Of a stretch of DNA of 8,523 nucleotides, positions 1 through 8,523 are shown one piece after another. Position 1 is the stretch's first letter; each line of letters opens with the position of its first letter. Where the stretch lies: contig WQRL01000011.1 of NCBI GenBank assembly GCA_009786775.1, positions 5,461-13,983 on the forward strand, read 5' to 3'. This stretch comes from Oscillospiraceae bacterium (GTDB lineage Bacteria > Bacillota > Clostridia > Oscillospirales > Oscillospiraceae). The translations under genes and the position numbers were made by a program. Below the pieces are notes generated by a model. That model was given only the letters and a program-made list of their open reading frames with translations, searched no databases and was not told the origin of the DNA.

Positions 1-436
1 GGTCAATTCCCACCTTAGAGAGCATTTCCCCCGCTTTTTTCATCGCCTCGGCAGCGGTGGTTCTTTCGTGCAGCCTGATAACTTCAGCTATCTGCTCACC
101 TACCGGAATAACGGGATTGAGGCTGGTCATAGGGTCTTGGAAAATCATCGACACTTTATTGCCGCGGATTTTGCGCATACCCGCTTCTTTCTTGCCCACA
201 ACATCCTCGCCGTCAATGAATATCTCACCGCCGACTATCTTTCCCGGCGGGTTTGGCACCAGCTTCAAAATCCCCAGCGCAGTTGTCGTCTTGCCGGCTC
301 CTGTTTCACCGACCAGACCCACGGCCTCACCGCGGTCAACGCTGAGGTTTAGGTTATTTACGGCATGCACCACACCATCATCTGTTTTATAGTGGATGGT
401 GAGATTCTTTATTTCAAGTAGCTTCTCATTACTCAT
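1..436 (-). CDS. dppD: DppD/OppD-type peptide ABC transporter ATPase, N-terminal part
   Basis: This is the first 145 codons of an ATPase that energises the peptide/nickel-type importer encoded just upstream; the gene runs off the left edge, so no stop is visible. The protein begins MSNEKLLEIKNLTIHY, as DppD/OppD proteins do. Walker A is GETGAGKT at residues 43-50 and the Q-loop lies in FQDPMTSLNP at 99-108, a run typical of this family. The ABC signature, Walker B and the C-terminal oligopeptide-binding extension would be off-window. The ATG at 434-436 is chosen because CAGGAG sits 7 bases upstream of it. The gene follows dppC after a 109-base gap, a break from the tight spacing of dppB and dppC. 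The exact substrate (dipeptide, oligopeptide, nickel, glutathione) cannot be told from this subunit; the symbol names the subunit class. Confidence 0.93.
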   Translation of the reverse strand, partial: MSNEKLLEIKNLTIHYKTDDGVVHAVNNLNLSVDRGEAVGLVGETGAGKTTTALGILKLVPNPPGKIVGGEIFIDGEDVVGKKEAGMRKIRGNKVSMIFQDPMTSLNPVIPVGEQIAEVIRLHERTTAAEAMKKAGEMLSKVGID

Positions 437-466
437 TATTTCACTCCTGCATAGACTAACTTATTG

Positions 467-517
467 GATAGCGCGGCACGGGTCAAAAACTTATGCCCAG
501 GCCCGCATCACACTATC
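467..517 (-). other. Imperfect stem-loop in the dppC-dppD gap
   Basis: Read on the minus strand, GATAGTGTG (517-509) can pair with CGCGCTATC (475-467), with two G-U pairs. The stem continues with GC and GGG pairing to GC and CCC around two small bulges. The loop is about 19 bases. No U-tract follows, so this does not look like an intrinsic terminator. It could stabilise or process the dppBC message ahead of dppD, or be chance. The rest of the 109-base gap (437-545) holds no gene I can support. Confidence 0.3.
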
Positions 518-545
518 TAGGTTTTCACAGCATTCATTTTCAAAA

Positions 546-1472
546 TTACTGTTTGAGGCGCGGGTCAAGAACGTCGCGCAAGCCGTCGCCGAGCATGTTC
601 AGGCCGAAAACAACCAAGGCAATCGCCAGCCCCGGGAACACAGTACTCGGCCAGTGGTCGCGTATAAAACGCCGTCCTTCCGAGAGCATGGCTCCCCACT
701 CGGGAGTGGGAGGCTCAACGCCCAGACCGATAAAGCTCAGCGCCGCGGCTGACAAAATCGCCACCGCCATGCCCATTGTTGCACGGACAATAATCGGTGC
801 CATGCAGTTGGGCAAGATATGCAAAAACATAATGCGCAGATCCTTAGCTCCAATCGCCCTGGCCGCTTCAATAAACTCCTGTTCACGGACAGACAGCACG
901 GAAGATCTCACCTGTCTTGCAAACAGCGGTATGGAACCTATGCCGACTGCAATCATGAGGTTGACAAGCCCCGCCCCCAATGCTGCCACAATCGAAATAG
1001 CCAGCAAAATGTTGGGAATCGCCATCATAATATCTATAAAGCGCATTATAATGCTATCAGATGCTTTGCCATAATATCCTGCGACGGTACCCAGTATTAC
1101 TCCGACTACCATCGAAATGCCGACTACAACAAAGCCGACCAAAAGAGAAATGCGAGAACCGTGAACAACCCTGTTAAATATGCAGCGCCCGAAGTTATCC
1201 GTGCCGAAAGGGTGTTCCCTGCTAGGGAAGGTGTTGCGGTTCCCCAAATCCTGAAACTCGTAGGCCGGCACTTCCCCCAGTATGGGGTCATAAACCGCCG
1301 GTGCGATGACATCGGCAAAAATGGCTGAAAAAATCAGCACCAGCACAATGAACAGCCCCACCATTCCAACAGGATTTCTTCTAAACCGCCGCCACATATC
1401 ATGTAACTGGCTGCGCTTCTTTTTTTCTTTCACTTGCTCCGAAGGAGTGTTATCTATATTTCGCAAAATCAT
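546..1472 (-). CDS. dppC: DppC-type peptide ABC transporter permease
   Basis: One of the two membrane subunits of the peptide-type importer, 308 residues, a usual length for DppC. A cytoplasmic basic N-terminus (KEKKKRSQLHDMWRRFRRNP, about 16-34) leads into the first helix (about 36-54), matching the OppC_N region. The family motif HPFGTDNFGR follows at 87-96. The BPD_transp_1 core has the EAA loop that docks to the ATPase at about 199-221 (EFIEAARAIGAKDLRIMFLH). LSFIGLGVEPPTPEWGAML at 245-263 and the ending LGDGLRDVLDPRLK are also DppC hallmarks. The ATG at 1470-1472 is supported by AGGAGG about 5 bases upstream; that site overlaps the dppB stop codon, and the two genes are 9 bases apart, so translation is probably coupled. 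Its partner is DppB. No damage is seen. Confidence 0.96.
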   Translation of the reverse strand: MILRNIDNTPSEQVKEKKKRSQLHDMWRRFRRNPVGMVGLFIVLVLIFSAIFADVIAPAVYDPILGEVPAYEFQDLGNRNTFPSREHPFGTDNFGRCIFNRVVHGSRISLLVGFVVVGISMVVGVILGTVAGYYGKASDSIIMRFIDIMMAIPNILLAISIVAALGAGLVNLMIAVGIGSIPLFARQVRSSVLSVREQEFIEAARAIGAKDLRIMFLHILPNCMAPIIVRATMGMAVAILSAAALSFIGLGVEPPTPEWGAMLSEGRRFIRDHWPSTVFPGLAIALVVFGLNMLGDGLRDVLDPRLKQ

Positions 1473-1481
1473 CTCCCCCTC

Positions 1482-2408
1482 CTACTTATATTGCGATTTA
1501 ATGCGCGGGTCTATGTAGGCATACAGTATGTCAACTAACAGATTGACCAAACTAAATACTATAGCCAAAAACAAAACCCCGCCCTGAATGATTGGAAAGT
1601 CGCGTGTGCGGATAGAGTCCACCATGAACCGCCCAAGTCCGGGCACTGCATATATAGACTCTGTCAAAACAGCTCCGCCCAACAAAAATCCAAAATCAAG
1701 GCCGACAGCAGTGACAACGGGAATCAGGGCATTGCGCAGGGCATGCTTCCAGATTATAACAGATTCCTTCTGCCCCTTAGCCCTTGCTGTGCGGATATAA
1801 TCCTGCCGTATTACTTCGAGCATACTTGAGCGGGTGATACGCATAACCATGGCAGCACTACCTGTGCCCAATGTAATTACAGGCAAAATCCAGGCCGAAG
1901 GGGTGGCGATGCCTGAAGGGGGCAGCCATCCTAAATTGATGGAAAATAATATAATCAGCATCAGCCCCAGCCAGAAGTTGGGAATCGAAACCCCCAACAG
2001 GCCGGCCGCCGTGGCAGCATTGTCGAATATGCTATACTGCTTGGTCGCCGATATAATGCCTAGGGGAATGCCGATTAACACGGAAAGCACCGTGCCGTAA
2101 AACGCCAGCATCAATGTTGTCGGGAACCTGTCCATAATTTCATCGACAACACCTCTGCGAGTCATGAAGGAATTTCCCAAATCGCCTTGCACCATATTGA
2201 CAACATATGTCACATAGCGCACCAAAAACGGGTCATTTAACCCCATTTCTTCCCTTAATGCCTCAATAGCCTCCGGCGGAGCGCCCTCTCCCAGTGTCAT
2301 AATGGCAGGGTCGCCCGGAGTTATATAGGTCATAAAGAAAATAACAAAACTAACGCCCAGAATAATGGGAATCATCATCAAAAGACGTTTGAGTATATAC
2401 TTGTACAA
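1482..2408 (-). CDS. dppB: DppB-type peptide ABC transporter permease (TTG start)
   Basis: The second membrane subunit of the peptide-type importer, 308 residues. The N-terminus MYKYILKRLLMMIPIILGVS is the standard DppB/OppB opening helix. TPGDPA at 30-35, the extracytoplasmic stretch with GLNDPF at 56-61, LGVSIPNFWLGLMLI at 138-152, the EAA loop at about 203-230 (DYIRTARAKGQKESVIIWKH) and LTESIYAVPGLGRF at 248-261 are all family hallmarks, as is the ending DPRIK. The start is a TTG: an in-frame TAA lies eight codons upstream with no ATG or GTG between, and a good ribosome binding site precedes the TTG. The gene ends in TAG nine bases before dppC. A 134-base gap with two stem-loops separates it from the binding-protein gene upstream. 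Confidence 0.95.
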   Translation of the reverse strand: MYKYILKRLLMMIPIILGVSFVIFFMTYITPGDPAIMTLGEGAPPEAIEALREEMGLNDPFLVRYVTYVVNMVQGDLGNSFMTRRGVVDEIMDRFPTTLMLAFYGTVLSVLIGIPLGIISATKQYSIFDNAATAAGLLGVSIPNFWLGLMLIILFSINLGWLPPSGIATPSAWILPVITLGTGSAAMVMRITRSSMLEVIRQDYIRTARAKGQKESVIIWKHALRNALIPVVTAVGLDFGFLLGGAVLTESIYAVPGLGRFMVDSIRTRDFPIIQGGVLFLAIVFSLVNLLVDILYAYIDPRIKSQYK

Positions 2409-2412
2409 TCCA

Positions 2413-2421
2413 TCACCGCCT
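2413..2421 (-). promoter_or_regulatory. Ribosome binding site deciding the TTG start of dppB
   Basis: AGGCGGTGA on the minus strand differs from AGGAGGTGA at one base and ends 4 bases before the TTG at 2408-2406. The nearby ATG at 2413-2411 is out of frame with dppB and lies partly within this site, so it is not the start. Confidence 0.7.
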
Positions 2422-2457
2422 ATTTGCTCTTATAAGTCATGTGCCAGGTCTTGGTTA

Positions 2458-2498
2458 AGCATGCCGGCATGGCCTGAATTTGGCTTCGCCGGCATGCT
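2458..2498 (-). other. GC-rich stem-loop between binding-protein gene and dppB
   Basis: AGCATGCCGGC at 2458-2468 is the exact reverse complement of GCCGGCATGCT at 2488-2498, giving an 11-base-pair stem. GCC at 2472-2474 can also pair with GGC at 2482-2484 inside the loop. No U-tract follows on the transcribed strand. A stem-loop at this position in binding-protein operons commonly protects the upstream message from 3' exonucleases or attenuates read-through, so the binding protein is made in excess. That role is inferred here. Confidence 0.65.
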
Positions 2499-2516
2499 AA
2501 GTTTATGCTAGGTGTG

Positions 2517-2535
2517 TCCGGAAATTATTTCCGGA
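2517..2535 (-). other. Short perfect stem-loop just after the binding-protein stop codon
   Basis: TCCGGAAA at 2517-2524 and TTTCCGGA at 2528-2535 form a perfect 8-base-pair stem with a 3-base loop, seven bases past the TAA of the binding-protein gene. There is no U-run after it, so it is not a standard intrinsic terminator. With the larger stem-loop at 2458-2498 it forms a tandem hairpin pair ahead of dppB. Confidence 0.6.
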
Positions 2536-2542
2536 AGCTATT

Positions 2543-4141
2543 TTAGTGGATAACTACGTTCCACAAGGGGAATACGCCTGAAGGTGTAACTGTAAAGCCT
2601 TCGATGTTGTTTCGAGATGCATGCAATTCAACAGACTGCCATAGCGGGATAAGGGGCAGATCTTCCATTATCAGAATTTGAGCTTCACGGTAGGCTTCCA
2701 TGCGGACTGCATCGTCGGAGCTGGTTCTGCCTAGGTCAAGCAGTTCGTCAACGCGCGGGTTTGAGTAGAAGTTACGGTTACCAGCATCACCCCAGTTGCT
2801 GCTGTGGTAAACTGGGAAGAGGCCGTAGTCGGGATCGCCCGTAACTGAAGTCCAGCCCATGAGGGACATGTCATGTTCGCCTGCTGCTGTGGCAGGTAGC
2901 AAGATACCCCACTCGTAGATGTTGATTTGAGTTTCGATGTTTAGCGCACGGAGCTGAGCTTGAATCATGGTGGCGGCGTCAGCGCGCATCGCATTACCTT
3001 CATTTACCCAGACATTGGTTGAAAATCCATCAGCCAGTCCAGCTTCAGCCATTAGCTCACGGGCTCTTTCGATATTTTGAGGGATGATTGGGAACTCCAG
3101 AGCACCTCTGATGGTGGTGGGTATCGGGCCTGTAGCAACTTGGCCGAGGCCTGCCCATGCGACATCTACGATAGATTCGATATCAATTGCATAAGCTATG
3201 GCTTGACGTACTCTTATATCGTCAAATGGGGCTCTTTGGTTATTAAAGCCCAGCCATGTGTTAAGCGCAAGGTTTGGAACTTCAAGCATTACCAGGTCGT
3301 TATGCTCTCTTATACGCGCAACCTCTGTGGCCGCAGCGTCAAAGAGAAGGTGTGCAGAACCTGTTTCCAGCTCTATTGTGCGTACGCCCGCTTCAGGAAC
3401 AATGCGGAAAGTGATTTGCTCAACTGCTGGAAGCTGGCCTTCCGGCAAGCCTGGGACTACACTGTTGAAGTCTTCAAAGCGGACAAGCTCAAGACGGTCG
3501 CCTGCCACTAGGTTGTGGAAACGGAACGGGCCAGTGCCTACAGGGTTTTGACCATGCGCTTCGTCACCTACACGCTCTACCTCTTCACGGTTTACAATGC
3601 TGGCCGCTTGGTGTGCAAGATGGCTGAGCATTGGGGCAAACGGGTATTCGGAAATCAGCTTAACTTGGTTGTCGTTTAGAACTTCAACTTCGTAGATGAA
3701 ACTTGTGATAGCTGCGATATGCGGTGACTGGCCTGCACGGTTGAGGCTAAAGGCCACGTCATCAGCAGTGAGGATGTTGCCGTTATGGAAACGGACACCT
3801 TCCCTAAGTGTGAATACAACGGTTTGTGCATCCAAAAACTCCCATTCTGTAGCAAGGCCGGGAATGATGTTTAGGTCTGCATCTTGATATACCAAGGTCT
3901 GATATATCAGGTGGAACACGCGGGCTGAGGGAACGTCGTTTGTAAGCGAGGGGTCTAGGTTTGCCGCAGCCATCGGCTGAACTACAAGCAGGTGTGTTTC
4001 GCCAGCAGCACCATTAGCTGCCGGGGTTCCTGCATCATTTGCAGTGCCGTTTTCTGCCGCAGGGGGAGCGTCCTGGCCACATGCGGTGAGCAGGAGCATT
4101 GCACTTATAACAAGTGCGGCTAATACTAGGATCTTTTTCAT
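2543..4141 (-). CDS. Peptide/nickel-type ABC transporter solute-binding lipoprotein (SBP_bac_5 family)
   Basis: The extracellular binding protein that captures substrate and delivers it to DppB/DppC; 532 residues, a usual length for the DppA/OppA family. The N-terminus is a lipoprotein signal: basic MKK, a hydrophobic core, and lipobox LTAC with the lipidated Cys at residue 21. A low-complexity Ala/Gly/Asn/Pro linker (about 22-47) follows, a tether from the membrane. Family landmarks are GLATEW at 95-100, LREGVRFHNGNILTADDVAFSL at 112-133, NPVGTGPFRF at 199-208, VRQAIAYAID at 311-320 and GDPD at 435-438. The last resembles the GDPD element of DppA-like proteins, where an Asp contacts the peptide amino group in E. 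coli DppA. The ATG at 4141-4139 has AAAGAGGT 5 bases upstream. It is the first gene of the peptide block, behind its own probable promoter. Dipeptides are likely, but oligopeptide, nickel or glutathione cannot be excluded. Confidence 0.93.
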   Translation of the reverse strand: MKKILVLAALVISAMLLLTACGQDAPPAAENGTANDAGTPAANGAAGETHLLVVQPMAAANLDPSLTNDVPSARVFHLIYQTLVYQDADLNIIPGLATEWEFLDAQTVVFTLREGVRFHNGNILTADDVAFSLNRAGQSPHIAAITSFIYEVEVLNDNQVKLISEYPFAPMLSHLAHQAASIVNREEVERVGDEAHGQNPVGTGPFRFHNLVAGDRLELVRFEDFNSVVPGLPEGQLPAVEQITFRIVPEAGVRTIELETGSAHLLFDAAATEVARIREHNDLVMLEVPNLALNTWLGFNNQRAPFDDIRVRQAIAYAIDIESIVDVAWAGLGQVATGPIPTTIRGALEFPIIPQNIERARELMAEAGLADGFSTNVWVNEGNAMRADAATMIQAQLRALNIETQINIYEWGILLPATAAGEHDMSLMGWTSVTGDPDYGLFPVYHSSNWGDAGNRNFYSNPRVDELLDLGRTSSDDAVRMEAYREAQILIMEDLPLIPLWQSVELHASRNNIEGFTVTPSGVFPLWNVVIH

Positions 4142-4259: not shown

Positions 4260-6632
4260 CTAGGTTAGGGTGTCATACCGCTCGGCAAACTCTCTTTGCT
4301 TACTGAGGGCACCGCTGTAAAATACTATTGGCAAAACTACTGTTGTGAGCAGGGCGGCGATGAACACGAACAGGCCGACAGCCCCCGCTCTGAAAACTAC
4401 AACGGCTAGGTACACATCTACAATTGACATTATAAGACCCATCCCGCCGAGTGCGCTGAGCATTCCTGCGCGCCTTAAGTCTTTGCGGAAGATGATGCCC
4501 ATAATGCTGTAGAACGCTCTATACAGTGCAAACACCAAAGTTAGTGCGTAGACTATCCACCAAGGGGCTACCAGCGGGGCTGTGGCATCCCAGAGCCCGG
4601 CCATAGCCAGTCCGCCTACGGAAACAATTACCGCCAAAATACACCCGGCCAGCATCAGTATTGATGAAGCCCTAATGCGGTTTTCGGCCGATATGCTCAG
4701 TTTGCTGCGTATGTTTGCAAGGCCTGCTGATATTTTCAAGGCTGCGTTGCCGGGCTGCGCAATGGGGTCTGCCTTTACATTGGTGCGAGTACCTACGAAG
4801 TACACAATCGGCAGAAGTGTGGCAGTTATAAGGAGAATGATCAGTGTCATAACACCTATGGCCTGCCCGTTATACATGGCAAACGCCAAGAAGATTTCAG
4901 GGAATGCTACAAGTATGCCCAGCCCGCCAAGCACACTGAGCCTGCCTGACTTGCGCAAGTCATTGCAGTAGAGGATGCCCATGATACTGTAGAAGGCTCT
5001 GTACAGGGAGAACACTAGTGTAAGGCCGAAAATCATTGCCCACGGTACCGTCATGCGTATCGCGGCATCCCAATGGGCGGCCATGGGCAGCCCGCTGGCA
5101 GCGACAACTATTCCGGCTATGCTCCCTGCAAGCATCAAAAATGATGAACCCCTTATGAGGTTTTTGCCCGGAACCTTCAGCTTCTTCGAGATGCGCTTCC
5201 ATCCGTGCATTATTAGTGCGAATGCTATGACAGCATTTGCTACCACCATGCGGAAGTATTCACCAATCAGGGCACTTCCAAACAGCCGCATACCCGCAAA
5301 TGGAGCAAGTATAAAGAATGCATGGAAGATTATTACGCCGATTACAGCATGTTTAATGGATGCCTTTGCCACCGACGCCCCGCCGACAAGAAGTGCTGCC
5401 ACTGCATACAGGGCAACAAACTCGTGACCGCCGTATGTAACCATAACTCCGACATTTTGCATGAATATTAGGTGTCCGAAAGCTGCCAGGACAGTGGATA
5501 TCATCATTGCAATAATCCTTGTCCTGTCCACGTTTATTCCGGCGGCTGTCGCAACGGCCCTGTCGTGGCCGATTGTCCGCATGTTCTGGCCCAGCCTAGT
5601 GTTCTGAAACCACGTGATAATGATGCAGAGCACCGCAATTATTATGTAGGTAAAGACTGGAATCCTCACCCTGTCAAGGCCGTTGTAAATCTCCGGCTGA
5701 AGTGTCAGCAGGAACACCAAAATTCCTATTACCAGATACTTTACCGTATTTTTTTGAAATGCGGGCGGTTTCTCCCCAACTTTTGACCTTATAAAGCTGA
5801 CGAGCGGAACGAGCATCGCGCCAAAGGCCACAATCCAGACGCCGTACAGCCCTCTGAGCCGGTCTACATACAGCCACTCGTGGAAAGGCTCAATGATATA
5901 GTTAAGCGCATAGGCAATACCCAGTATTACCAGCACAACCAGTGATTTTAGAAGCCCGCCAGGCCCTTTGAGGGTTATCGGGATTTTCCTTATGGCATTG
6001 GAGATTATAACAAGCACTATGAGAGCTGCAAGCCCCCAGAATGCAACCTGAAGCAGATGGAACATGTGTACATTGTCAAGCGCCTGCCTCATGCCAAAGG
6101 TTCCCATTTCAATTGCGTTGAGAACCCCGACTCCGGTACCAGTGGTAAGGCCCGGGGTAGTTATGGTGATTACCCCTCCGAAGACAAAGAGGAACAGGAA
6201 GTTGTAAAACCCGCCGAAAAACAGGTTTGCCACCATTCCGCCTATCATCTCCGCACCTTTCATCTTGTTGAAAAGTTTACCCACTATATAGCCGAGAAAC
6301 ACAGCTATCGGAATGGACAACAGTGCAACAAACATTATGCCTGTAAGCCCCTGTCCTCCCCACAAAATGATGAGAAACAGAGCAATCTGTGCTGACATCG
6401 CACCGATTCCGACGGCAAAGTTGAGCCCTAGCCCGGCCACAACCGGAATAAGGAGTGCCAAAACTAGAAATAGATTGCGCCCGATGCGCGTAAATAGTTC
6501 ACTGAAAAACATTACAGTGGACATTCCCGCCGCCCAAAATGCGCCGGCTGTAATGAGAAGGAAGAGCAGGACAACCTTGTACTCGAATACAAATTCCTTT
6601 AGCTTGGTAAACACTGCGTTATTCGTATTCAT
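4260..6632 (-). CDS. Oversized sugar/nucleoside-type ABC permease with duplicated four-helix C-terminal domain
   Basis: The second membrane subunit of the upstream importer, 790 residues against roughly 300-400 for most of the family. Residues 1-480 are a BPD_transp_2 permease: GLGLNFAVGIGAMSAQIAL at 67-85, the cytoplasmic coupling region GHDRAVATAAGINVDRTRII at 355-374, and AVAALLVGGASVAKASIKHA at 410-429, each with a counterpart in the 376-aa partner permease. The core has about 120 extra residues between about 155 and 350 with several additional hydrophobic segments. After a basic hinge (478-490, WKRISKKLKVPGK) come two homologous four-helix domains, 491-614 and 651-774, joined by a polar linker. 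The ATG at 6632-6630 overlaps the partner's TGA as ATGA, with an AAGGGGGGGAG binding site before it. It ends in TAG at 4262-4260. Substrate unknown; function of the extension unknown. Confidence 0.9.
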   Translation of the reverse strand: MNTNNAVFTKLKEFVFEYKVVLLFLLITAGAFWAAGMSTVMFFSELFTRIGRNLFLVLALLIPVVAGLGLNFAVGIGAMSAQIALFLIILWGGQGLTGIMFVALLSIPIAVFLGYIVGKLFNKMKGAEMIGGMVANLFFGGFYNFLFLFVFGGVITITTPGLTTGTGVGVLNAIEMGTFGMRQALDNVHMFHLLQVAFWGLAALIVLVIISNAIRKIPITLKGPGGLLKSLVVLVILGIAYALNYIIEPFHEWLYVDRLRGLYGVWIVAFGAMLVPLVSFIRSKVGEKPPAFQKNTVKYLVIGILVFLLTLQPEIYNGLDRVRIPVFTYIIIAVLCIIITWFQNTRLGQNMRTIGHDRAVATAAGINVDRTRIIAMMISTVLAAFGHLIFMQNVGVMVTYGGHEFVALYAVAALLVGGASVAKASIKHAVIGVIIFHAFFILAPFAGMRLFGSALIGEYFRMVVANAVIAFALIMHGWKRISKKLKVPGKNLIRGSSFLMLAGSIAGIVVAASGLPMAAHWDAAIRMTVPWAMIFGLTLVFSLYRAFYSIMGILYCNDLRKSGRLSVLGGLGILVAFPEIFLAFAMYNGQAIGVMTLIILLITATLLPIVYFVGTRTNVKADPIAQPGNAALKISAGLANIRSKLSISAENRIRASSILMLAGCILAVIVSVGGLAMAGLWDATAPLVAPWWIVYALTLVFALYRAFYSIMGIIFRKDLRRAGMLSALGGMGLIMSIVDVYLAVVVFRAGAVGLFVFIAALLTTVVLPIVFYSGALSKQREFAERYDTLT
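4311..4682 (-). repeat. Second copy of the tandem membrane domain (residues 651-774 of the 790-aa permease)
   Basis: This stretch encodes four hydrophobic segments (about 656-675, 690-714, 724-747, 751-774) and aligns without gaps to residues 491-614 of the same protein at an offset of 160 residues. By hand count 59 of 124 positions are identical. The best conserved run is LTLVFALYRAFYSIMGI at 697-713, which differs from copy one at a single residue. The copies have clearly diverged, so this is an old duplication rather than an assembly artefact. Confidence 0.88.
4791..5162 (-). repeat. First copy of the tandem membrane domain (residues 491-614 of the 790-aa permease)
   Basis: Four hydrophobic segments (about 496-515, 530-554, 564-587, 591-614) with the motif LTLVFSLYRAFYSIMGI at 537-553. 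The order of landmarks is IRxSSxLMLAG, GLxMAxxWD, the LYRAFYSIMGI run, DLRxxGxLSxLGG, then LPIV near the end; all recur in copy two at the same spacing. A polar linker of about 36 residues (615-650) separates the copies. I do not recognise the domain as a named family. Confidence 0.88.
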
Positions 6633-7759
6633 CGGCTCCCCCCCTTAATTTTAGTCAGAGCATACAAAATGATGCCGTTGGTCGCAATCGCCCTGAGCAT
6701 TTCAGGTACGCCCGCCCGCAGTTCCGGCGGCAGCAGCTCTGTTGCAAGCGGCAGAGCAATTGTAAGGATGCCGTGGAAAATAAACGCTCCGAAAATAACA
6801 TCGAACACTCTTGCCCTTCTTACAGTGGCACCGCCCACTAAAACCGCAGCTACAGCCTGGAATGTAAATGCGTTTGGACCTGCATAATATTGTAGAAAGC
6901 CAAAACTTTGAGCATAGATAACAATACCCACAGCCGCCAAGGCTGTTGAGAGGGTAGTGCCTATAATGCGCATCTTGTCAACATTTATGCCTGATGCCCT
7001 TGCATAGTTCGGGTTTGCCCCCGCCGCACTCATCATCATTCCTGTGCGGCTTCTTGTAAACATCCAGATAATTAGGCAGAACACCAAGAACACCAGCACA
7101 AGCCCGAGCCTGACCGTCATACCTCCGATTTCAAACCGCAGAAGCTGGTCAAAGGCATTTCCAAAGTCCTGATCCAGATTAACCATCTGGCGCAGCCCTC
7201 TGCCCGTTGCAGGAAGGATTGCGATGTCCGCAGTGATAAAGGGGCTCATAGCCCACAGGATATTAAACAGCGCAACAGCAGAGAAGCCTACATATACCGT
7301 AATTGCCATCTCACTGCCCTTAACCTTGTTAAGAAGCATGCCGTACAAAATTCCGATAGCGACAGATATGATAAGGGCAACTACAATTGCCACCAGTGCA
7401 AGCACTATAGGATTTAGATAGGGGTTTGTAATGCTGCCAAACAGCCCCCGGTGGTTTAGTTCAATGCTTACCGTGGCTCCGACAAGACCGCCCAGGATAC
7501 CCAGCGGAACACCGAAGTTCGGGCCGACACCGCTCTGTATGCTCGGCAGCATAGCAAGAACTATAACCCCCCACATTCCCCAGCGGCGTATTACGTCGCC
7601 GAAAAACGAGGCAGTGTTCATGTCCATAAGCCCTGCGCCAACAAACATTAGCACAAAAAGCCCAACTATAATAACACGCGCCAAGCCAAAATCCGTCTGG
7701 ACCTTGCCCCACAGCCTCGCGGCTGTCCCTTGCCCCGCAGCAGTTGTTTCAGGCTTCAT
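6629..7759 (-). CDS. Sugar/nucleoside-type ABC transporter permease (BPD_transp_2 family)
   Basis: First membrane subunit of the upstream importer, 376 residues, a normal size. After a short cytoplasmic N-terminus the helices start at about 28-45. Family landmarks are VGPNFGVPLGILGGL at 78-92, the cytoplasmic ATPase-coupling region AAGANPNYARASGINVDKMR at 245-264 (corresponding to the RbsC/YufP-type GxNxxAAxxxGI loop) and AVAAVLVGGATVRRARVFDV at 302-321. It pairs with the 790-aa permease encoded next, which aligns at the same three places. The ATG at 7759-7757 shares its A with the ATPase stop (TAATG) and has GTGAGGT just upstream; the TGA stop overlaps the next start as ATGA. These overlaps imply translational coupling and fixed stoichiometry. 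The substrate could be a sugar, a nucleoside or a related small molecule; the sequence does not decide. Confidence 0.92.
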   Translation of the reverse strand: MKPETTAAGQGTAARLWGKVQTDFGLARVIIVGLFVLMFVGAGLMDMNTASFFGDVIRRWGMWGVIVLAMLPSIQSGVGPNFGVPLGILGGLVGATVSIELNHRGLFGSITNPYLNPIVLALVAIVVALIISVAIGILYGMLLNKVKGSEMAITVYVGFSAVALFNILWAMSPFITADIAILPATGRGLRQMVNLDQDFGNAFDQLLRFEIGGMTVRLGLVLVFLVFCLIIWMFTRSRTGMMMSAAGANPNYARASGINVDKMRIIGTTLSTALAAVGIVIYAQSFGFLQYYAGPNAFTFQAVAAVLVGGATVRRARVFDVIFGAFIFHGILTIALPLATELLPPELRAGVPEMLRAIATNGIILYALTKIKGGSR

Positions 7760-8523
7760 TATACCTCACCGCCTTCCGCATTGTTTGCAGGCGCATCACC
7801 GCCGTATAGCGCCTTATCCCAGCGTGAATCCTCAGCCTCTAAGCCAGCATTAGCTTGAGCGGCACCGAAGCTCACCGTTTCAGCCTGGGCAATATTTTCT
7901 GCGCTGGGCGCAACTCCGCTCATCGCAAGGCCATATTCGGCATCAGTCGCGTCGGGGCGCAAAGTAGCTATTATCTTGCCGTCTGATACAATCGCTATCT
8001 GGTCACAGAGGCTCCTTAGCTCCCCTAGCTCACTGCTGACCATTATAATAGTCATGCCTTCATCGCGCAGCTTCGAGAGGTAGTTTAGGATCAGTTCCTT
8101 CGCCCCTATGTCGATGCCACGGGTCGGCTCGGAAACTATCAGCACCTTCGGCCCCATTGTTAGAGCTGATGCCAGACACACCTTTTGCTGATTGCCGCCT
8201 GACAGAGTGCCTGCTTTTTGCTTGCGGCTCCGGCATCTAATGTCAAGTGTCTTTATCATCTCGTCAGCATGGGTGTTCATCTTGTGGGCGTTTATCTGTC
8301 CGCTCCGCAAAAATTCACGCTTGGTTGTCATGGTGCGGAACATTATGTTGTGGGCAATACTTTCTTCAAGCAGTAGCCCAACGCCGCGCCTGTCTTCTGA
8401 AACGAAGGCAATGCTTTTGCTCAGGGCATCCCCAAGTTTTTTCAAGTTGAGCTGCTCGCCGAATACTTCGACCCGCCCTTCGGCTGAAAAGAGCCCTGCA
8501 ATTCCGTTGGGAATACCCACCTT
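7759..8523 (-). CDS. Sugar/nucleoside-type ABC transporter ATPase, C-terminal domain (partial)
   Basis: The last 254 codons of what is normally a roughly 500-residue ATPase with two nucleotide-binding domains; the first domain and true start lie beyond base 8523. Codon 2 (GTG, 8520-8518) is an internal valine, not a start. Visible landmarks, numbered from the first visible codon: KVGIPNGIAGLF at 1-12, the position of the degenerate Walker A in this class; VSEDRRGVGL at 41-50, a family hallmark; ABC signature LSGGNQQK at 107-114; Walker B VLIVSEPTRGID at 127-138; SSELGEL at 163-169. Walker B has Ser where Asp is usual, and Walker A has Lys-Val instead of Lys-Ser/Thr, so this half is probably a non-catalytic site. 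A 50-residue Ala/Glu/Asn-rich tail ends the protein. The TAA stop overlaps the next permease's ATG by one base. Confidence 0.93.
   Translation of the reverse strand, partial: KVGIPNGIAGLFSAEGRVEVFGEQLNLKKLGDALSKSIAFVSEDRRGVGLLLEESIAHNIMFRTMTTKREFLRSGQINAHKMNTHADEMIKTLDIRCRSRKQKAGTLSGGNQQKVCLASALTMGPKVLIVSEPTRGIDIGAKELILNYLSKLRDEGMTIIMVSSELGELRSLCDQIAIVSDGKIIATLRPDATDAEYGLAMSGVAPSAENIAQAETVSFGAAQANAGLEAEDSRWDKALYGGDAPANNAEGGEV

Follow-up and report, generated by a model that had tools for sequence, protein, structure and literature searches.

The window analysed here, a stretch of 8,523 nucleotides from an Oscillospiraceae bacterium (contig WQRL01000011.1, assembly GCA_009786775.1), encodes a 790-residue permease of an ATP-binding cassette (ABC) importer whose C-terminal extension holds two tandem copies of a predicted four-helix ("tetraspan") membrane domain. 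The permease gene lies on the minus strand at 4260..6632 and was recognized from its open reading frame and a Pfam match to BPD_transp_2. Judged from sequence, the extension is a member of a large family of predicted four-helix membrane proteins of about 130–190 residues with almost no annotation, and the domain has been reused as an accessory membrane module and is no isolated case. The duplication had been noticed in a first-pass annotation of this DNA; what that picture lacked is a free-standing small-protein family fused to four kinds of ABC permease. On balance, we favor the view that the tandem tetraspan domain, shared with free-standing proteins and other ABC permeases, is a lateral partner-binding module that tethers or regulates the importer.

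The duplicated extension and the permease core

Copy A (residues 491–614, 4791..5162) was delimited by self-comparison, profile search and AlphaFold2, and copy B (residues 651–774, 4311..4682) by the first two of these; a positively charged linker (residues 615–650, 4683..4790) lies between them, all on the minus strand. The copies align without gaps at an offset of 160 residues, with 59 of 124 positions identical, whereas 2000 shuffles of the whole protein averaged 9.6 identities and never exceeded 22, and the duplicated domain of about 124 residues reported earlier at 4311..5162 therefore stands. Two contigs encode the 790-residue protein, and the longer measures 76 kb, so an assembly fault is an unlikely source of the tandem copy. 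Third bases are alike in 24 of 54 positions with an identical residue, and agree at 41% of all 124 codons. Synonymous positions look saturated, suggesting that the likeness of the two copies at the protein level was kept by purifying selection and does not reflect recency. The first-pass annotation had gone further, reading a near-invariant run shared by the copies as selected for a specific contact. Purifying selection is supported, but part of the identity is likely to be shared descent, because the copies are sisters in our trees, and free-standing members preserve the long run only loosely, chiefly as G-I-x-G.

AlphaFold2, given copy A with 29 relatives, predicted four long helices (predicted local distance difference test, pLDDT, 90), in agreement with the four-helix reading proposed earlier. 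With segment borders set from hydropathy, 24 lysine and arginine residues of the extension fall across five presumed cytosolic segments, versus 2 in the four outer loops. The positive charges are predicted to lie on one side, with both ends of each copy cytosolic, and a copy could therefore be appended to either terminus of a permease with the topology left intact. The outer loops of the two copies have 9–12 residues each, and the loop between helices 3 and 4 has 9 in one copy and 12 in the other. A tryptophan occurs in the first half of helix 3 in 21 of the 30 rows of alignment A3; both fused copies and a paralogue from the same genome have leucine there, pointing to a possible difference in pairing.

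The core that precedes the extension (residues 1–478, 5199..6632, minus strand) matches orthologues of about 490 residues in alignment A4. It had been described as a complete BPD_transp_2 core. The Pfam match is present (42.1 bits, cut-off 26.8), but it spans residues 197–463 and so begins late, and the core is oversized, exceeding the whole 376-residue partner permease by more than 100 residues. The surplus, placed around residues 186–322 by reading of the alignment (5667..6077, minus strand, borders inferred), is a membrane stretch common to the permease subfamily. Profile comparison of the extension with this stretch and with two other parts of the core gave 0.2–1.3%, supporting no kinship, and scans of the extension with Pfam, NCBIfam and PADLOC returned nothing over cut-off. 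The earlier description of the extension as a membrane accessory that lies beyond the transport core, and outside any described family over cut-off, agrees with these results. The surplus core stretch may itself be an old two-fold repeat (profile self-comparison 78.5%, E value 1.7e-5). In two related permeases of 658 and 666 residues (P0066 and P0073) it is doubled at an offset of 147, with 40/73 and 41/72 identities, and the doubling is only faint in two others of similar length (P0069, P0072). Taken with the window's extension, one permease subfamily thus displays two unrelated tandem doublings of membrane modules.

A search with the whole permease gave 1092 proteins; of the best 120, three carry the extension: the window's own (P0001, two copies), and P0002 and P0003 (633 and 632 residues; 71–72% identical), with one copy each. 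A domain-profile search found no extension in the other 117, and the 27 of these that were aligned end shortly past the last core helix, as the first-pass annotation had expected of such permeases. Neither of the outcomes that it had named as telling against its view, a match to a well-described family or the same extension, with a known role, in most orthologues, was found. One kind of core thus appears with two, one or no tetraspan copies, and these permeases form a ready comparison set.

A free-standing family and its fusions to ABC permeases

Free-standing homologues, which the first-pass annotation had proposed to look for, were found, including a paralogue encoded by the same genome as the window. 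When 101 genomes from the same taxonomic family were searched with the permease, this paralogue emerged as a 155-residue open frame matching permease residues 486–629. The extension alone found it again (E 2.0e-18), and it corresponds to a 147-residue free-standing gene (L022:2360-2803), whose flanking genes, encoded on the opposite strand, we take to be htpG-like and mreB-like. Its start, MTNLPGKNLIR, compares with KLKVPGKNLIR in copy A, a match that would fit an entire free-standing open frame having been joined to the end of a permease.

A profile (A1) built from both copies, P0002, P0003 and this gene detected further free-standing proteins, the best at 1.9e-14 (L026), and matched 17 of 300 genomes of the taxonomic family at E ≤ 0.01. 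Marginal matches of this profile in open reading frames of 502–891 residues (E 0.003–0.004; G054, G167, G176) are absent from the family survey at E ≤ 0.001. An enlarged profile was then run against the protein database: of 7997 candidates that were scored, 2348 qualified as relatives at E ≤ 1e-5, and the top 120 were listed. The free-standing rows had originally been found by a profile that included the fused copies; a profile restricted to free-standing members matched the P0002 copy at 1.1e-8, copy B at 0.0062, copy A at 0.027 and the full 790-residue protein at 0.41. Family members have the motif PGK/R-xLLKV..GIL, G-I-x-G, LP-V-LY..GA..N, parts of which are found in copy A (PGKNLIR, MGILYC, LLPIVYFVG..TN) and are less well kept in copy B and the single copies.

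Wider surveys at E ≤ 0.001 matched 48 of 400 genomes and 26 of 106 genera in the window's taxonomic family, 23 of 391 genomes in the class, 7 of 51 in the order of G474, and 2 of 398 in a sample of the phylum, one of these being the window's own genome. In the sampled genomes, the family therefore appears to be chiefly class-level (Clostridia). Adjacent free-standing genes were seen in 3 of the 47 matching genomes of the family survey besides the window's own (G297, with three, G112 and G1134), and in 3 of 22 in the class survey (G649, G647, and G612 with one partial gene), and one 273-residue protein (P0123) holds two copies. Side-by-side rows of two or three free-standing genes lie at L073:2691-4412, L070:2172-3899 and L071:2145-2988, the first of them adjoining genes that are presumably spoIIGA- and sigE-like. 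Another free-standing tetraspan protein (L032:1348-1851) has a C-terminal SHOCT domain (3.2e-9). Fusions to permeases offer a first handle on the role of these many small membrane proteins.

All 12 family-survey matches in open frames longer than 300 residues, the window's permease aside, were read. Three are BPD_transp_1 permeases, two in G010 and one in G112, and a gene adjoining the latter is a fourth fusion of this type, with weaker matches (independent E values 1.4e-4 and 6.8e-4). In both genomes the domain is N-terminal on both permeases of one importer (L113:2487-5383, L114:3078-5941), which we take to be CUT1-like; an SBP_bac_1/8 gene adjoins it, accompanied in G112 by one for a MalK-like ATPase. 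The second CUT1-like permease has a FIVAR-like insert in the loop between helices 1 and 2 (1.8e-5 and 0.0095, both below cut-off). Eight other long matches (353–552 residues; L117, L118, L120–L125) have a long repetitive insert of helical or coiled-coil appearance in the same loop; only three of them match the second half of the profile, and Pfam found no ABC match in the two that were scanned. The remaining match, in G217, looks like a free-standing gene read from a too-early start. The sole match over 300 residues in the class survey, a G474 permease (L069), carries the domain C-terminally at 359–495; it matches PF02653 with 139.7 bits, its best NCBIfam match is LivM (224 bits, cut-off 366), and it sits between LivH- and LivG/LivF-type genes. 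In the phylum sample, the G760 match combines the domain with a low-complexity tail. In all, the domain is thus carried by eight permeases, which fall into four kinds: P0001, P0002 and P0003, the permease in L069, two in L113 and two in L114.

These fusions bear on whether the extension does anything at all. It could be a neutral passenger, a downstream tetraspan gene fused through loss of a stop codon and later doubled, with no role in transport; the presence of the extension in only 3 of the 120 listed permeases, and the existence of both single-copy and two-copy forms, would be expected in that case. However, the copies have remained open and 48% alike despite saturated synonymous sites, the domain has been kept in P0002 and P0003, and the same family is fused at either end to four kinds of ABC permease. 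We therefore consider a mere passenger unlikely.

The order of events was examined with two trees, the domain set omitting repeats as well as any match that spanned under 100 profile positions, and the second tree omitting thirteen locus names that were long, distant, duplicate-named or near-copies. Copies A and B are sisters in both (98/83 and 98/88), as are the copies of P0002 and P0003 to each other, and the free-standing gene of the window's genome stands next to all of these fused copies (100/98 and 99/98). This order favors one fusion followed by doubling in the window's lineage, although a forced grouping of copy A with P0002 and P0003 without copy B is still allowed (approximately unbiased test, p-AU 0.246). 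On the second tree, four changes between fused and free-standing states were counted, equal to the number of fusion kinds, on branches between permease groups that are weak (82/78 to 85/79). Placement of the LivM-type domain is firm in the first tree (97/86), whose bootstraps had not settled, and weak in the second (85/61 and 82/78). A single origin of the DUF3798-type and LivM-type fusions was also tried and received a borderline rejection (p-AU 0.046) for a group named after the tree had been seen. Independently of the trees, the opposite permease ends and the two permease families argue for several fusions.

The importer operon and the binding protein

The gene for the partner permease (376 residues, BPD_transp_2; 6629..7759, minus strand) has an overlapping start/stop with the 790-residue gene. 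Beside it lies the C-terminal part of an ABC ATPase gene (7759..8523, minus strand), the remainder of which is on contig C189 of the same genome, together with a gene for a DUF3798 protein (293 bits). The end of C189 and the end of the window have 39 identical bases and the same protein stretch in common. From gene content, the window importer is a putative operon of DUF3798 substrate-binding protein (SBP), ATPase, permease and permease split over two contigs; the Pfam match over cut-off and the SBP, ATPase and permease partners place it among the BPD_transp_2 importers. The order DUF3798 protein, ATPase, permease, permease recurs in L050 and L053, where Pfam identified the DUF3798 protein at each locus and, in L053, also the ATPase and the first of the permeases; the other genes were judged by eye. 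DUF3798 proteins (for example L090:1121-2395) are little-studied presumed binding proteins, for which the operon supplies an ATPase and two permeases; in the literature searched the term occurs in two papers, and the available part of one of them, PMC10600179, gives DUF3798 by name only. Downstream, at window positions 2-4141, the translations suggest by eye a dipeptide/oligopeptide-type ABC operon with a binding protein, two permeases and an ATPase.

Among the three roles suggested in the first-pass annotation, docking of the binding protein now seems the least likely. In this case the extension would serve as a platform for the DUF3798 protein on the outer face, and both the below-cut-off FIVAR-like insert in the outer loop between transmembrane helices 1 and 2 of the second CUT1-like permease and the long helical-looking inserts in the same loop of eight relatives could be taken to point that way. 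The outer loops of the window's copies, at 9–12 residues, leave little to dock on, and permeases with the same core, by eye without an extension, stand beside DUF3798 proteins in L050 and L053; we regard docking as highly improbable.

Proposed role and comparison with known systems

Under the lateral partner-binding reading, a free-standing tetraspan gene would have been fused to the permease and later doubled, and copies A and B would pack together as a built-in dimer beside the transport core. The outer faces of this dimer would bind a membrane partner, so that the module could tether the importer to another membrane protein or regulate it through one. Partner binding, dimer and regulation are inferred by analogy with AuxB and the TMD0 domains, described below, on which our commitment to this reading is founded. 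A broader version, which we find doubtful, would make the domain a general importer tetraspan of Clostridia: a mobile four-helix counterpart of TMD0, repeatedly joined to BPD_transp_1 and BPD_transp_2 permeases, that couples uptake to a shared membrane partner or importers to each other, with free-standing versions acting in trans and the window's tandem as a hard-wired dimer.

The two-copy stretch had no match in a protein database search limited to a length range that left out complete permeases and the majority of free-standing proteins. Against the sequences of solved structures, the profile matched best, at 0.016, a portion of peptide transporters; for the permease there was no match at 0.01. 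Foldseek on the full model gave nothing meaningful. In a separate comparison, the best fold neighbors include tetraspan proteins such as CD20, CD81 and CD53. These neighbors would suit a sensor of lipids or small amphiphiles, in which each copy binds a membrane lipid within its bundle and tunes transport allosterically, and the authors of work on AuxB consider undecaprenyl metabolites as signals (available part of PMC12505970). The match to an MS4A/tetraspanin-like fold, however, falls below the line for helical bundles, and we give the sensor a low probability. Eukaryotic tetraspanins are marked by a large loop that joins helices 3 and 4 on the outer side and bears a CCG motif; the corresponding loop of the window's copies is short, and CCG is absent from both of them. 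For DUF4383 (PF14325), one of six relatives tested, the free-standing P0127, just passes the cut-off (27.8 versus 27 bits), whereas copies A and B have no match and the model matches 0 of 118 class genomes.

Copy A had no match to DUF4064 (PF13273), and the best of 30 members reached 0.022 (15.4 bits, cut-off 32.1). Profile comparison of DUF4064 rows with the tetraspan family gave 69% over 104 columns, and 62.7% with free-standing rows alone. The DUF4064 side comprised just four rows, of which two were almost the same and one scored below cut-off; against two permease-core segments these rows gave 0.3% and 1.2%. We therefore treat DUF4064, and with it AuxB of Staphylococcus aureus, as a possible distant relative, a lead and not a membership. 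As described in the available part of PMC12505970, AuxB, the studied protein nearest to the tetraspan domain, is a four-pass protein whose DUF4064 domain its authors place in the Pfam tetraspanin clan, and its membrane part is in equilibrium between a homodimer and a PknB heterodimer. Like the tetraspan domain it is small and four-pass, and its cytosolic C terminus and lateral binding of a membrane partner (same source) resemble what we propose. Unlike the window's domain, it binds a kinase and is free-standing, outside any importer.

A literature search, with most subscription journals and all preprints outside its scope, returned nothing on a tetraspan domain joined to permeases of importers. 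The usual description of an ABC importer comprises a transport core, an ATPase and a binding protein, and one small, almost unannotated domain on four kinds of importer permease may point to unstudied docking or regulation of importers in the membrane. BPD_transp_2 permeases of DUF3798 systems share the core and the SBP-ATPase-permease-permease order with the window, but nearly all of those listed end shortly after the core. GlnPQ and OpuA, in the source excerpts consulted, likewise have accessory domains linked to the transmembrane part of an importer, in tandem in GlnPQ; those are soluble substrate-binding domains and not membrane bundles as here. Among ABC exporters, a parallel is TMD0 of TAP1 and TAP2, which, in the available part of PMC3437018, consists of four putative helices appended to an ABC transmembrane subunit and forms autonomous domains that recruit tapasin 1:1. 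TAP is a eukaryotic exporter with N-terminal TMD0 domains, whereas the window's extension is C-terminal, doubled and part of an importer. The TMD0-type N-terminal position, absent from the window permease and from L069, is found in L113 and L114. By this analogy, the known theme of extra membrane domains on ABC subunits is here seen in importers, with a function that would follow the same principle of lateral recruitment.
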